A stretch of 64,000 nt of DNA from Halorussus sp. MSC15.2 (GTDB lineage: Archaea > Halobacteriota > Halobacteria > Halobacteriales > Haladaptataceae): assembly GCF_010747475.1 (NCBI RefSeq), contig NZ_VSLZ01000003.1, positions 124,001-188,000 of the forward strand. Reading direction: 5' to 3'. Each line of letters begins with the position of its first letter. Within the stretch, counting starts at the first letter, position 1. Under the pieces are notes generated by a model. That model worked only from the letters and a program-made list of their open reading frames with translations. It was not told where the DNA came from and made no database searches. The translations under genes were made by a program, and so were the position numbers. Below are positions 36,552 to 57,978 of the stretch, in pieces.

Positions 36552-36710
36552 ATGCCCGCGACGCTCGAAGTGAAGTGTACGAACGACGAGTGCGAACTGG
36601 ACATGTTCGAGATGCACTACACCTACGATATGCCCGACGACGTCGGTATCGAGGACTTTCAGTGTCCGTACTGCACTCGAACCGACACCCTCCGGGAAAT
36701 CGAGCTATGA
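36552..36710 (+). CDS. Small zinc-binding protein
   Basis: A 52-residue protein (MPATLEVKCTNDECELDMFE…) with CTNDEC near residues 9-14 and CPYC near 38-41, a CX4C/CXXC pair that can hold one zinc. It ends CTRTDTLREIEL. The stop overlaps the start of the next gene (ATGA at 36707-36710), so the two are translationally coupled. The function is unknown. Confidence 0.8.
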   Translation: MPATLEVKCTNDECELDMFEMHYTYDMPDDVGIEDFQCPYCTRTDTLREIEL

Positions 36711-37123
36711 CCATCCGAGAGATTGGCCGGTCGGTCGGTAGCGCCGTCCTCCAGCGCGTCGGCCGCGCCGCCAGCAAGGTCCAAGAGTCCAAGCCCCTCC
36801 CCGTGGACCTGCTGGAGAGCGACGACGCCTACCTCGTGGTGTTCGACGCGCCCGGCGCGACCGGAAGCGACGTGCAGGTCCGGTACGCCGAGGGTGCGGT
36901 CCACGTCCGAATCGACCGCTTCCGCGACTACTACGAGGGCTTCGAGATGCTGTTCCCCGGCCGCGGTCTCTCGCTCGACGGGAAGGCCGACCTCCCGACA
37001 GACGCCGTGGTGGACGCGAACGAGGCGTCCGCGACCCTGACCGAACACGGCACCCTCCGCGTTCGGGTCCCCAAGCGCGCCGAGGAGAAAGGAGAGTCAG
37101 ATAGCGTCTCCGCGGAAGCGTAG
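36707..37123 (+). CDS. Hsp20-like (alpha-crystallin fold) protein
   Basis: A 138-residue protein. After a basic helix (MTIREIGRSVGSAVLQRVGR) comes a beta-sandwich with LPVDLLESDDAYLVVFDAPG, VQVRYAEGAVHVRIDR, LPTDAVVDANEASATLTEHG and TLRVRVPK, the order seen in Hsp20 domains; the terminal IxV-like motif is weak. Such proteins hold unfolded proteins without ATP. It is coupled to the upstream small zinc protein by a 4-nt overlap. Confidence 0.82.
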   Translation: MTIREIGRSVGSAVLQRVGRAASKVQESKPLPVDLLESDDAYLVVFDAPGATGSDVQVRYAEGAVHVRIDRFRDYYEGFEMLFPGRGLSLDGKADLPTDAVVDANEASATLTEHGTLRVRVPKRAEEKGESDSVSAEA

Positions 37124-37348
37124 CGCGATTCGGTGGTCGTGCTCGCACACTACTCGTGTCTCTTTTATCGTTTCACTGCCGGTATTGACGCGTCGTACGC
37201 AGAGACTCATCGATAGCTTCTCTAGAACATCTCTCCGGCGGATGGCCATCTAAAGAATCCGAGCGCGCTCGTTCCTAGTAGTGGATGTGAGGTCTGCGTT
37301 CGCTCTGTTCCACGCAGTCTATCGCTCACTACGACAGGGACTCAGTCA

Positions 37349-37408
37349 TCAGTAACAACTGGTCCGTTCGCACGGGGGGACGTAGTCCATAAGGGAAATT
37401 CCGAACAT
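37349..37408 (-). CDS. Tiny Cys peptide 4 of a new family (19 residues)
   Basis: The peptide is MFGISLMDYVPPCERTSCY, stop TGA at 37349-37351. GGAGGTGA at 37413-37420 lies 4 nt before the ATG, an ideal Shine-Dalgarno, and a GAAAAATTTAAAT element lies 48 nt upstream. It shares the MF start and two Cys (13 and 18) with the peptides at 56185, 57610 and 57922. It is located 106 nt downstream of the FAD-dependent oxidoreductase gene on the same strand, but has its own AT-rich promoter region. There is no known relative that I can name. Candidate roles are a modified peptide, a metal ligand or a signal. Translation is inferred. Confidence 0.6.
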   Translation of the reverse strand: MFGISLMDYVPPCERTSCY

Positions 37409-37443
37409 TAGTTCACCTCCGGGCATATGTGGGAACTGTAACG

Positions 37444-37456
37444 ATTTAAATTTTTC
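37444..37456 (-). promoter_or_regulatory. AAAATTT promoter element of peptide gene 4
   Basis: Minus strand GAAAAATTTAAAT, 48 nt from the first base of the ATG at 37408. The flanking ATATATAATTATAATTATT on the upstream side can serve as TATA region. The same element occurs before the three other peptide genes. Confidence 0.45.
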
Positions 37457-37514: not shown

Positions 37515-38681
37515 CTACTCCACCGTCATCCCCTCGACCACGTCGAACTCCTCGTCGCCCTCGAAGCGGTTCGGGTCGAACTCCGGAAGCGGACTCTCGC
37601 CGAGTACGGACTCCGCCACCGCTTCGCCGAGCGCCGGGGCGCGCATGAACCCGTGGCCCTGCCACCCGGCCGCGACGAACAGACCGTCGCGCAACTCGCC
37701 CAGTAAGGGGTCGCGGTCGGGCGTGGCCACACAGAGACCCGCCCACGAGTCCCGGACCGCGCCGAAGTCGCCGAGGCGGCGGGCGAGTCGTTCGCGGGTG
37801 ATATCGCGAAACTCCCGGTCGGCGTCGCGCTTCCAGTCGTCGGGGTCGCTCTCGACCTCCTCGGTGCCGTCGCCCGCGAGCAGGCCGTCGGGGTGGGGCC
37901 GGAGGTAGTAGCCGCCGGTCGCGTCGTAGCACATCGGCAGGTCGGCCCGGCGCTCGTCGTCGTACCCCGCGGTCAGCGCCTGCACCCGGTAGGGTTTGAG
38001 CGGAACCGGAATCCCGGCGATGGCGAGCAGGCGTTTGGTGTGAGCGCCCGCGGCCACCAGAATCGCGTCGAAGAGTTCGCGTTCGCGTCCGTCTTCGTCG
38101 TCGCTCTCGGCGGGGGCGCTCTCGACCGCGAGGTCGTCGGCGTCGATTCGCGCTTCGACACCGGTCCGGACCGTCGCGCCCGCGTCGCGGGCCTTCTCGG
38201 CGAGCAGGTCGGCGTAGCTTCCGGGGTCGGTCCGCCCGGCGTTCTCGGCGACCGCCGCCACGCCGACGTCGCTCCAATCGACCGCGGGGAATCGGTCGCG
38301 GAGTTCTCCGACGTCGGCGAACGACACGTCCCGGCCCTGCTCGCGCATCTCTGGCACCTGTTCGCGGAGGGCCTCGGCGCGCTTCTCGTCGCCCTCGCGG
38401 GCGAACCAGACGTAGGGCGTCTCGCGGAACTCGAAGTCGCCGTCGCCGGAGAACTCGCGGAATCGCTCGATGGCCCGTTCGCCGACCCGCGCGTCCTCGG
38501 GCGCGGCGAAGGCGTCGTAGAGGACGCCCGCCGCCCGGCCCGTACTCGCGCCGCCGATTTCGCCCTTCTCGTAGACGACGACCTCGGCGTCCCGTCGAGC
38601 GAGGTCGTAGGCCGCCGTGACGCCGACCGCGCCACCGCCGATTACCGCGACCGTCGGCCGCGTCTCGTGGCTCCCACTCAT
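37515..38681 (-). CDS. FAD-dependent oxidoreductase (DAO/glycine-oxidase-like)
   Basis: The 388-residue flavoprotein of the D-amino-acid oxidase/sarcosine oxidase fold oxidises an amine or amino acid. The FAD Rossmann loop VAVIGGGAVGVTAAYDLARR is at residues 11-30, GGASTGRAAGVLYDAF contacts the flavin, and the C-terminal FVAAGWQGHGFMRAPALGEA is the typical second FAD contact. Its start overlaps the stop of the creatininase-family gene by 4 nt, so both act together. The substrate is unknown. Confidence 0.9.
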   Translation of the reverse strand: MSGSHETRPTVAVIGGGAVGVTAAYDLARRDAEVVVYEKGEIGGASTGRAAGVLYDAFAAPEDARVGERAIERFREFSGDGDFEFRETPYVWFAREGDEKRAEALREQVPEMREQGRDVSFADVGELRDRFPAVDWSDVGVAAVAENAGRTDPGSYADLLAEKARDAGATVRTGVEARIDADDLAVESAPAESDDEDGRERELFDAILVAAGAHTKRLLAIAGIPVPLKPYRVQALTAGYDDERRADLPMCYDATGGYYLRPHPDGLLAGDGTEEVESDPDDWKRDADREFRDITRERLARRLGDFGAVRDSWAGLCVATPDRDPLLGELRDGLFVAAGWQGHGFMRAPALGEAVAESVLGESPLPEFDPNRFEGDEEFDVVEGMTVE

Positions 38682-55946: not shown

Positions 55947-55978
55947 ACGGGCCTGAACAGCGTAGTGGAGGTGAGAGA

Positions 55979-56038
55979 ACGTTCGGACTCGACTCGTTCA
56001 TCAGTTGTGACCCGTGGATAGACGGCTATTCGACCGCT
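55979..56038 (+). pseudogene. Possible relic of a Cys peptide gene (ACG in place of ATG)
   Basis: GGAGGTGA at 55967-55974 is followed 4 nt later by ACGTTCGGACTC, which matches ATGTTC at the same spacing in the peptide genes. The frame reads TFGLDSFISCDPWIDGYS with Cys at position 10, but there is no nearby stop. Without the AAAATTT element this is weak and could be chance. Confidence 0.2.
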
Positions 56039-56121
56039 GTACGGTTACACGACGACTGCCGAAACACCACTCCAGTATTCTACGTACCGAATCGTCGCGG
56101 GTTAATAGCTGGGTATTCTAT

Positions 56122-56134
56122 ATAAAATTTCTAG
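56122..56134 (+). promoter_or_regulatory. AAAATTT promoter element of peptide gene 1
   Basis: ATAAAATTTCTAG, 63 nt before the ATG at 56185. It nearly repeats the element before peptide 2 (ATAAAATTTCCTAG, 64 nt before its ATG). Confidence 0.5.
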
Positions 56135-56184
56135 AAAATAATTAAGAACAACGGGACGCCTATGTTCATCCGGAGGTGACAAAG

Positions 56185-56241
56185 ATGTTCTTCCTGTTCC
56201 CGGCCGAGAACATGTGCAAACCGTATCGCGTCGAGTGTTGA
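56185..56241 (+). CDS. Tiny Cys peptide 1 of a new family (18 residues)
   Basis: The peptide is MFFLFPAENMCKPYRVEC, stop TGA. GGAGGTGA at 56172-56179 lies 5 nt before the ATG. Cys are at 11 and 18 and Pro at 6. Peptide 2 has Cys at the same positions, also ends -EC and has the same Shine-Dalgarno and promoter element. It follows the mutase gene by about 240 nt and faces the class V aminotransferase convergently. No known relative comes to mind. Translation is inferred from the signals. Confidence 0.65.
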   Translation: MFFLFPAENMCKPYRVEC

Positions 56242-56324: not shown

Positions 56325-57472
56325 TCAGAGCCACTTCACCAACTCGTCCACGTCCGCCTCCGAGTTGAACGCGTGAACCGACGCCCGGACCGCGTTTTCG
56401 GGGGACGGGAGCGACCGAATCCGGACCCGTCGTCGGCCAGTTCCTCGACGAACGCCTCCGGGTCGGGGTCGTCGATTGCGAACGTCACGAGACCCGACTC
56501 GTACTCGCGAGGACTCAGCAGGCGGGCGGTCTCGGCGTTCCGAATGCCCGCCTTCAGTCGGTCGGTGAGCGCCTCGATGCGGCCCCGAATTACGTCGTAC
56601 CCCATCTCCTCGATGGTCTCGATAGCCTCGCACAGGCCCGCGTAGGGCGCTGGCGAGACGGTGCCGACTTCCAGCCTGTGGGCACCGGGTTCGTAGGCGT
56701 ACTCCTCGGCGTTCGGGTCCTCGACGCTCCGGTAGCCGACGTGTGCCGGTTCGAGGCGGGTCTCCGCGCCCGGAGCGACGTGGACGAATCCCGCACCGAA
56801 GGGACCGAGGAGCCATTTGTGGCCCGCGCCAGCCACGAAGTCAGCCCCCCACTCGCGCACGTCCACCGGCATCTGGCCGGGGCACTGGACGGCGTCCACG
56901 AGGACCAGCGCGCCCGCGTCGTGGGCCGTCTCGACTATCTCGCGGACCGGCAGGAGCGTGCCGTGACTCCACGTCAGCGAACTCAGGCAGACGAGTTTCG
57001 CGCCCACGACGGCCGACGCCATCCGGTCCGCGTCGAGGCGTCCGCCGTCGCTCTCGACTACTTCTACTTCGACGCCCCGGCGTCGCAGGCGTTGCCACGG
57101 CAGGATGCCCGACGAGTGTTCGAGGTCGGTCCGGACCACGGTGTCCCCGCGCTCCCAGTCGAGCGCTGCCGCGACGCGATTGATGCCGTCGGTGGTGCTC
57201 TGGGTGAGCGCGATTTCCGCGGCGGTCGCGCCGAGGTGGTCCGCGACGACCTCGCGCGTCTCGTCGAAGACGTCGAACGAGAAGGGGTACATCCCCTCGC
57301 CGCCGGGCGACTCGTACTCGTGGCCTTCCACGCAGGACTCGACGGCCTCGACGACGCGGGACGGACTCGGTCCCGCGGCCCCGGTGTTGAGGTACGTCGT
57401 GCGGTCGAGCGCCGGAATTTCGGTCCTGAGGTCGGTCGGGTTCACGTCTCCGGTCACGGGAACCACCTCCAT
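56325..57472 (-). pseudogene. Class V aminotransferase (cysteine desulfurase-like); frame broken as sequenced
   Basis: A PLP enzyme of the NifS/SufS/isopenicillin-epimerase group. From the ATG at 57472 the restored protein has about 382 residues. YLNTGAAGPSPSRVVEAVES, TQSTTDGINRVAAALDW, DAVQCPGQMPVDVREWGADF and the PLP Lys in AGAGHKWLLGPFGAGFVHV are clear. The frame breaks at 56426-56428: one extra C on the plus strand restores EELADDGVRIRSLPSPENAV and the C terminus ADVDELVKWL. A conserved active-site Cys of true desulfurases is not evident, so the substrate is uncertain. The gene lies between peptide genes 1 and 3. Confidence 0.88.
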
Positions 57473-57559
57473 AAACCTCCGCGACGCGGCGGTGTGACTA
57501 GCCGTTCGCCCCGGCCGAACTGAGTGCCATAGACGAGTTTTGTACATCAACATCTAGTA

Positions 57560-57571
57560 GAAAAATTTTAG
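57560..57571 (+). promoter_or_regulatory. AAAATTT promoter element of peptide gene 3
   Basis: GAAAAATTTTAG, 50 nt before the ATG at 57610, the same element and distance class as peptide 4 (48 nt). Confidence 0.45.
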
Positions 57572-57609
57572 TATGTGGTGGTAGCCAATACCATGGGAGA
57601 GGTGATTGA

Positions 57610-57669
57610 ATGTTCATAATCGTGCCCTTCGATTACGCTTGCGCCCCCAATAGAGAATGTGAGTCGTAA
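57610..57669 (+). CDS. Tiny Cys peptide 3 of a new family (19 residues)
   Basis: The peptide is MFIIVPFDYACAPNRECES, stop TAA. AGGTGAT ends 3 nt before the ATG, matching the anti-Shine-Dalgarno except for upstream bases (GGGAGAGGTGAT). Pro6 and Cys11 are as in peptides 1 and 2; the second Cys is at 17, and the C terminus extends by ES. The change near the end and weaker 5' match suggest a diverged copy. An overlapping frame (MGEVIECS) exists and is not favoured. Confidence 0.55.
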   Translation: MFIIVPFDYACAPNRECES

Positions 57670-57871: not shown

Positions 57872-57921
57872 CCTAGATTTATGTTCTAAAGAAACAAGTA
57901 TCCTACAACGGAGGTGAGAAA

Positions 57922-57978
57922 ATGTTCCTGTTCACACCGTTCAAGGTCGACTGCCCGCTCCCCGAGACCGAGTGCTGA
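57922..57978 (+). CDS. Tiny Cys peptide 2 of a new family (18 residues)
   Basis: The peptide is MFLFTPFKVDCPLPETEC, stop TGA. GGAGGTGA at 57910-57917 lies 4 nt before the ATG. Pro6, Cys11 and Cys18 match peptide 1, with a C-terminal EC. Acidic and hydrophobic residues alternate. It stands alone between peptide 3 and a possible relic at 58264 and is upstream of the epimerase gene by about 440 nt. The function is unknown; ribosomal profiling or mass spectrometry would decide whether it is made. Confidence 0.65.
   Translation: MFLFTPFKVDCPLPETEC

Follow-up and report, generated by a model that had tools for sequence, protein, structure and literature searches.

A dispersed family of two-cysteine micropeptide genes in the haloarchaeal genus Halorussus

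Small genes that encode peptides with two cysteines, and that are scattered singly over Halorussus genomes, almost certainly constitute a real and previously undescribed gene family. The family appears as a lineage-specific set of dispersed micropeptide genes of which about 60 distinct copies were collected. No account of it was found in the open-access literature, and the ten members of at least 20 aa that were compared with Pfam and NCBIfam profiles gave no matches up to E 1 (the gene from which the analysis started encodes 19 aa). As to function we tentatively propose matured and exported cysteine-loop peptides of RiPP-like character that could act between cells, a reading which we consider a serious possibility somewhat short of probable.

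The flagged gene and its relatives in the window

The window, i.e. the whole stretch of 64,000 nucleotides from Halorussus sp. MSC15.2 that was analysed, holds four copies and a decayed one. The initial annotation had singled out a minus-strand ORF at 37408-37349 (ATGTTCGGAATT...TGTTACTGA, giving MFGISLMDYVPPCERTSCY*) as a remote member of a peptide family. On re-reading of the sequence the positions of this ORF, of its Shine–Dalgarno sequence (SD) and of its promoter proved correct to the base, and the nearest other copy, placed initially at about 19 kb, is 18.8 kb away. The features are:

37349..37408 (minus strand), stop within coordinates: micropeptide gene MFGISLMDYVPPCERTSCY, 19 aa, based on the sequence and the orthologue MFGISITDYIPPCSVTQFGCQ in genome G015
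37413..37420 (minus strand): Shine–Dalgarno GGAGGTGA, 4 nt before the flagged ATG, conserved in the alignments of 22 and 52 copies
37444..37456 (minus strand): TATA-type element GAAAAATTTAAAT of the promoter, some 24-36 nt ahead of the SD
55967..56125 (plus strand): decayed copy with SD GGAGGTGA, start codon changed from ATG to ACG at 55979, original stop lost
56132..56179 (plus strand): promoter element TAGAAAATAATTAAG (56132-56146) and SD GGAGGTGA (56172-56179) of the 56185 copy
56185..56241 (plus strand): micropeptide gene MFFLFPAENMCKPYRVEC, with G015 orthologue MFFLFPTEVKCPPSYVTC
57558..57605 (plus strand): promoter element TAGAAAAATTTTAG and SD GAGAGGTGA of the 57610 copy
57610..57669 (plus strand): micropeptide gene MFIIVPFDYACAPNRECES
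57874..57917 (plus strand): promoter element TAGATTTATG and SD GGAGGTGA (57910-57917) of the 57922 copy
57922..57978 (plus strand): micropeptide gene MFLFTPFKVDCPLPETEC

The element GAAAAATTTAAAT begins 48 nt upstream of the flagged ATG, which itself lies 106-107 nt beyond the stop codon of a FAD-dependent oxidoreductase (37515-38681, minus strand; PF01266, E 2.5e-60). At its other end the gene is convergent with an Hsp20-like gene (36575-37123, plus strand), whose label is taken from the G015 orthologue (PF00011), the window protein giving no Pfam match at 1e-5. At 37250-37345 (minus strand), past the end of the flagged ORF, about 60 nt are 75% conserved with G015, and a possible hairpin with paired changes (CTGCG...CGCAG / CTGAG...TTCAG) is found there, with no Rfam match.

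The decayed copy follows directly after the stop of the methylmalonyl-CoA mutase gene and reads xFGLDSFISCDPWIDGYS... (the FGLDSFISCDPWIDG reading); in G010 the copy after the same mutase also starts with ACG but its frame is intact. The 56185 copy is convergent with a class V aminotransferase gene (56336-57553, minus strand). This aminotransferase has an apparent frameshift near its 3' end at about 56.47 kb, with the expected C-terminus in an overlapping ORF (56325-56816); several relatives have an undamaged gene, and in G010 it is split. A link between it and the peptides was rejected, since the gene is present without peptides at the same loci of other species.

Gene layout and predicted transcripts

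All copies share one layout: a TATA element about 28 nt before the SD (a spacing near-fixed in 52 copies), a perfect GGAGGTGA, an ATG or GTG 2-9 nt further on and an ORF of 14-26 codons. With this distance between TATA element and SD, transcription is predicted from archaeal promoter geometry to start just upstream of GGAGGTGA. Of 54 copies, 30 have a tract of four or more T in the 100 nt that follow, where 8.3 were expected; most of these tracts lie 14-60 nt past the stop codon. Taken with the promoter geometry they predict transcripts of about 100-140 nt. Every gene would then be a minimal stand-alone transcription unit of this length with a strong BRE/TATA promoter, a very short leader, a perfect SD and often a U-rich terminator. 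The combination of SD, spacer and ATGTTC, initially put forward as the signal for finding further members, holds for three window copies only; at 57610 GAGAGGTGA replaces GGAGGTGA.

Extent of the family

In the window GGAGGTGA-N2-8-ATGTTC occurs three times, compared with no occurrence in 100 dinucleotide shuffles. Over 18 Halorussus genomes the SD-start pattern gave 32 matches versus 2 for the reversed pattern, and its true positives were tiny two-cysteine ORFs with an AT-rich promoter in front. Sequence models of promoter, SD and start were built from 22 copies (R1) and from 52 copies (R2). The flagged copy matches R1 over 37463-37396 (E 2.2e-11) and the four window copies do so at E 2.2e-11 to 6.8e-8; as all of them belong to the R1 training set, the alignments of 22 and 52 copies are the fuller evidence.

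The genome-wide scan, which the initial annotation had recommended, found with the promoter and SD model exactly six copies in MSC15.2 (E <=1.7e-4; the next match, at E 0.49, is noise); the window accounts for four of them and other contigs for two. The initial view of a dispersed family with its own promoters, not a local repeat, is borne out both by these six copies on three contigs and by the roughly 60 distinct copies found across the genus with the common promoter-SD-start layout. Model matches occur in 12 of the 18 Halorussus species, or 11 after dropping a weak and unconvincing match in G011, and copies are also present in one species of a sister genus (G023); the number per genome ranges from 0 to about 14. 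No other convincing copies were found in 394 genomes of the order by model search with stricter filters: weak matches in G048, G070, G145, G250, G260 and G336 gave no convincing two-cysteine peptide where they were read, and a cysteine-rich, arginine-rich GTG ORF in G070 was judged spurious. Plasmid searches returned nothing relevant.

Peptide features

The defining feature of the family, absent from the initial annotation, is its two-cysteine C-terminus. Composition was tallied for 57 distinct peptides gathered with a filter for two or more cysteines, which is a bias, and including the spurious G070 ORF, which hardly alters the percentages. In this set cysteine makes up 12.6% of residues (0.6% in the window proteins), phenylalanine 10.1% (3.3%) and proline 8.9% (4.9%). 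Exactly two cysteines are present in 44 of the 57 peptides, the last cysteine lies at most 3 residues from the end in 49, and residue 2 is F, I, L or M in 52. The typical member thus has a hydrophobic start (MF, MI or ML) and a C-terminal Cys...Cys loop, the spacing between the cysteines varying from 2 to 15. A short ORF with at least two cysteines stands behind 48 of the 49 family-level R2 matches (E <=1e-3), the lone exception being MTFPFPWTPIYPLL in G012. Neither serine nor threonine is found in 12 of the 57 peptides, including the conserved orthologues MFGFFPLQVCDGRIDNGC and MMFGFGLQIWCDYLGC; the flagged peptide has both Ser/Thr and Cys.

Conservation and turnover at fixed sites

Orthologous positions were detected in up to eight species. 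The shared intergenic sites lie beside the genes of proline dehydrogenase/DUF502, of aconitase/GNAT and of an amidohydrolase, and between those of methylmalonyl-CoA mutase and its epimerase, of Cpn60 and ornithine cyclodeaminase (OCD), and of FAD oxidoreductase and Hsp20. The last is the site of the flagged copy, and its G015 orthologue MFGISITDYIPPCSVTQFGCQ (L067) sits between the same two genes. Further copies and conservation, on both of which the initial annotation had made its family depend, are thus found.

The pooled orthologues have pS 0.52 and pN 0.21 (pN/pS 0.41), and from the first cysteine on pS 0.54 and pN 0.17, the partial grouping of orthologues by similarity lowering pN. The pair of the flagged gene and its G015 orthologue alone gives a weaker contrast (pS 0.35, pN 0.26). 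Identity among orthologues amounts to 77% in the ORF versus 57% in the promoter and 62% downstream, and IWCDYLGC is identical in two genera, where the sole change is synonymous. As orthologues at the same sites differ mostly by synonymous changes, the family ORFs are translated, judging from this translation-type conservation.

Site-specific sub-families can be recognized (GCGYHYGSxQVxC, PFCTCxEFPxxxC, VCGYNQCFLA, IWCDYLGC). Sequences are hypervariable among paralogues. Some copies have decayed, other examples being a lost stop in G005 and a degraded copy in G008; peptides at some shared sites, e.g. between Cpn60 and OCD, are unrelated in sequence. The closest relative of MSC15.2, G002, has a 99% identical mutase and no peptide copies at all. 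At its two sites corresponding to those of the window there are genes recognized by eye as those of a GH3-like glycosidase and a CPBP-like protease, and the glycosidase gene occupies the peptide position beside the FAD oxidoreductase. In the history of the family, copies seem to have arisen, been lost and been replaced at fixed sites.

Neighbouring genes

The copies are flanked mostly by housekeeping genes, and these neighbours differ among copies. When the genes of 53 loci were clustered only syntenic orthologues recurred, and no common processing enzyme or transporter adjoined the copies. The association of the peptide with the FAD oxidoreductase that had been suspected initially does not hold, and a partner role of this enzyme was rejected, since G002 keeps the oxidoreductase (94% DNA identity) at the same locus without the peptide. 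A 128 aa membrane protein beside the copy on L158 was likewise discarded, as it does not track the family.

Two exceptions to the housekeeping flanks, both in G010, point towards export or RiPP chemistry. In the first, the gene for MIDLKPQGNCKNCTSFCFCPF and an ABC-2 exporter pair are arranged divergently. MSC15.2 has the arrangement of G010 with MIDIKPQGNCPKCTSFCFCLL and an ABC exporter (G000:C8, about 40.5-44 kb; L156:9568-12758), but here frameshifts interrupt the ORFs for ATPase and permease, which G010 has intact. The syntenic site of G015 retains a 128 aa gene and a synthase-like gene, with exporter and peptide both missing. In the second, the G010 copy MFGICVYYDDAGVCLEYGKW has a CPBP-type (PF02517) protease and an ABC transporter nearby.

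A longer peptide matched by the promoter model in G013, MSDETAEAWEMNEIESEKRACTLTCDPTN, is placed between two SagB/nitroreductase-type enzymes and a MATE exporter (L153:7751-11629); no YcaO was seen near this candidate RiPP cluster, which resembles those of the TOMM/SagB type. In contrast with the tiny peptides, which have no such enzymes adjoining, MSDETAEAWEMNEIESEKRACTLTCDPTN has a leader-like N-terminus and is probably a separate RiPP with a similar promoter. In G015, the gene after MIDIFPRNPYICIHPCTP (L085:3676-4765) encodes a possible modifying enzyme of 266 aa that weakly matches R2K-type ATP-grasp.

Covariation with LanM

LanM genes were counted because, according to the open literature, Halorussus has the largest share of the archaeal LanMs (26 of 67; PMC12144867). 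Covariation with the peptides was compared for named gene families over 27 near-complete genomes of the taxonomic family, LanM being counted by PF13575. LanM is present in all 11 genomes with peptides, and among peptide-free genomes it is present in 2 (G001 and G019) and absent from 14 (Fisher 6e-6); peptide and LanM counts are correlated with a Spearman coefficient of 0.83, and Cas1 as control gave p 0.22. The 62%-complete genome G016 has peptides with no LanM detected, and many LanM genomes outside the taxonomic family are without peptides. On the mutase gene tree LanM and peptides change together in the comparisons G000/G002, G010/G014, G012/G006 and G008/G011+G017, with several sister groupings weakly supported (48-63) and few independent events. 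The link is a correlation. From the distribution of 11/0 against 2/14 and from the LanM genomes elsewhere that lack peptides, the peptides within this taxonomic family seem to need LanM or a co-travelling factor, and not the reverse.

Archaeal class II lanthipeptides comprise archalans, sallans, pellan and larlans, with Halorussus as the richest source (PMC10105419, PMC12144867). The micropeptides resemble them as short, cysteine-rich ribosomal peptides whose presence covaries with LanM. In contrast, the LanAs predicted beside Halorussus LanMs measure about 40-60 aa and have acidic leaders of 30-40 aa and no GGAGGTGA upstream, whereas the micropeptides are leaderless, mostly without adjacent LanM and often without Ser/Thr. 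The LanMs of MSC15.2 are located at C3:569 kb and C6:146 kb and the flagged copy at C3:161 kb; in G007, G008 and G015 the distance between some copies and a LanM cluster is 7-11 kb. None of the hallmarks of a LanA (leader, familywide core with Ser/Thr and Cys, adjacent LanM) characterizes the family, and ordinary lanthipeptide precursors are ruled out by the missing leader and by the 12 peptides without Ser/Thr.

Possible function

In the reading that we tentatively prefer, the N-terminus M-F/I/L-x-F/I would serve as a hydrophobic tag and the two C-terminal cysteines would close a loop of 2-15 residues, most simply by a disulfide or thioether. This loop would be the active part. Maturation and export would be carried out by enzymes encoded elsewhere, and the product might be a strain-specific signal or antagonist with extracellular action, which would amount to the same peptide-producing lifestyle as that of archaeal lanthipeptides. 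If this is correct, archaea possess a whole class of peptide genes that has been overlooked, since each has fewer than 30 codons and stands alone, and about 60 concrete haloarchaeal sequences are at hand for synthesis and testing. To our knowledge, peptide signalling of haloarchaea is largely unexplored. Dependence on LanM makes a specific experiment feasible in known lanthipeptide strains (Halorussus salinus YJ-37-H, H. litoreus). G015, in which the published archalan gamma core is encoded, is probably YJ-37-H itself or a near relative.

Among the alternatives, intracellular micropeptides that bind thiols or metals, i.e. a redox buffer or a Zn/Cu chelator with the cysteine pair as ligands, appear unlikely. 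Such a role would suit a rule of two cysteines in an otherwise free sequence, a promoter and SD strong enough to suggest high expression, and the lack of a signal peptide in the family. Haloarchaea also possess CPxCG zinc-finger micro-proteins (PMC11241148), which are likewise small and cysteine-containing but reach 70 aa and carry the C(P)XCG motif twice; the peptides described here have 14-26 aa and two single cysteines, and no C(P)XCG motif occurs in the peptide list. Moreover, a cysteine spacing of 2 to 15 leaves no fixed site, and simple chelation does not require that the residues between the cysteines be conserved within each sub-family, as they are (GYHYGS, YNQ, DYLG).

About as unlikely are immunity or regulatory peptides of lanthipeptide systems, either pheromones that activate LanM clusters or peptides that neutralise their products. 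Firmicutes pheromones (SHP/Rgg, ComS, AgrD) are likewise encoded by tiny, strain-variable ORFs missed by annotation, and AgrD even uses a cysteine ring; the hypervariable, multi-copy and strain-specific sequences of the Halorussus family are typical of pheromones, and its dependence on LanM within the taxonomic family would fit. However, Firmicutes pheromone genes are found beside a receptor or processing gene, whereas the Halorussus copies are solitary, occur in an archaeal host and are mostly far from any LanM cluster. No receptor or regulator was found adjoining them, and Pfam scans of flanking genes showed no AgrB.

A similarly doubtful reading regards the leaderless cysteine peptides as LanM-dependent partners, of a hitherto undescribed sort, of the archaeal lanthipeptide machinery that are encoded far from its clusters, for instance as thiol donors cross-linked in trans to dehydrated LanA or as cognate signals or antidotes of lanthipeptides. 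If true, it would explain why peptides occur only in LanM-carrying near-complete genomes of the taxonomic family.

Slightly less probable again is that LanM modifies the peptides themselves in trans, as leaderless lanthipeptide precursors scattered over the genome like prochlorosins. Prochlorosins (ProcA/ProcM) are many hypervariable precursors scattered in one genome, as in Halorussus, but the ProcA leader is long and conserved, whereas the Halorussus peptides share only about four hydrophobic N-terminal residues. The co-occurrence and count correlation with LanM, the copies 7-11 kb from LanM clusters and a Thr or Ser next to Cys in many peptides argue for such modification; the Ser/Thr-free peptides, MFGFFPLQVCDGRIDNGC and MMFGFGLQIWCDYLGC among them, and the absence of an acidic LanA leader from every peptide argue against it.

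That the transcript matters and not the peptide, be it a small regulatory RNA with a token ORF or an attenuator leader, is improbable. Transcripts of about 100-140 nt would have a suitable size, ribosome-associated sRNAs are known in Haloferax (PMC12482152), and the flagged copy is conserved with G015 over 60 nt downstream (75%). But in most pairs conservation follows codons and is confined to the ORF, the window gave no Rfam match, and there is no consistent downstream gene: neither the 37408 copy, convergent with the Hsp20-like gene, nor the 56185 copy precedes a regulated co-directional gene as an attenuator would. Chance ORFs behind ordinary haloarchaeal promoters can be dismissed, for although an AT-rich promoter with SD is not unusual alone, no pattern matches were expected, cysteine is enriched about 20-fold, and pN/pS of 0.41 and orthologous positions in up to eight species contradict them.

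Other short ORFs

In G003 three near-identical copies of MELSDLTExQxxEGDFIPCICFVDE (L160:9450 and 9943, plus strand; L161:8576, minus strand) have a promoter and SD of the family type with a different, leader-like N-terminus, and two of them stand in tandem upstream of a NikR-type regulator. The peptide MFGFLTFGASFWECFWFGKCK, from low-GC (35-44%) viral contigs, is alike by eye and was treated as unrelated, as it belongs to a phage gene block and to another domain. It is a conserved ORF of 21 aa (L271:8710, plus strand) with no annotated feature beneath it in the annotated phage records listed; a close match is present in about 220 staphylococcal phage records. A short gene flanks the ORF on either side, and an amidase-like endolysin is encoded immediately downstream.
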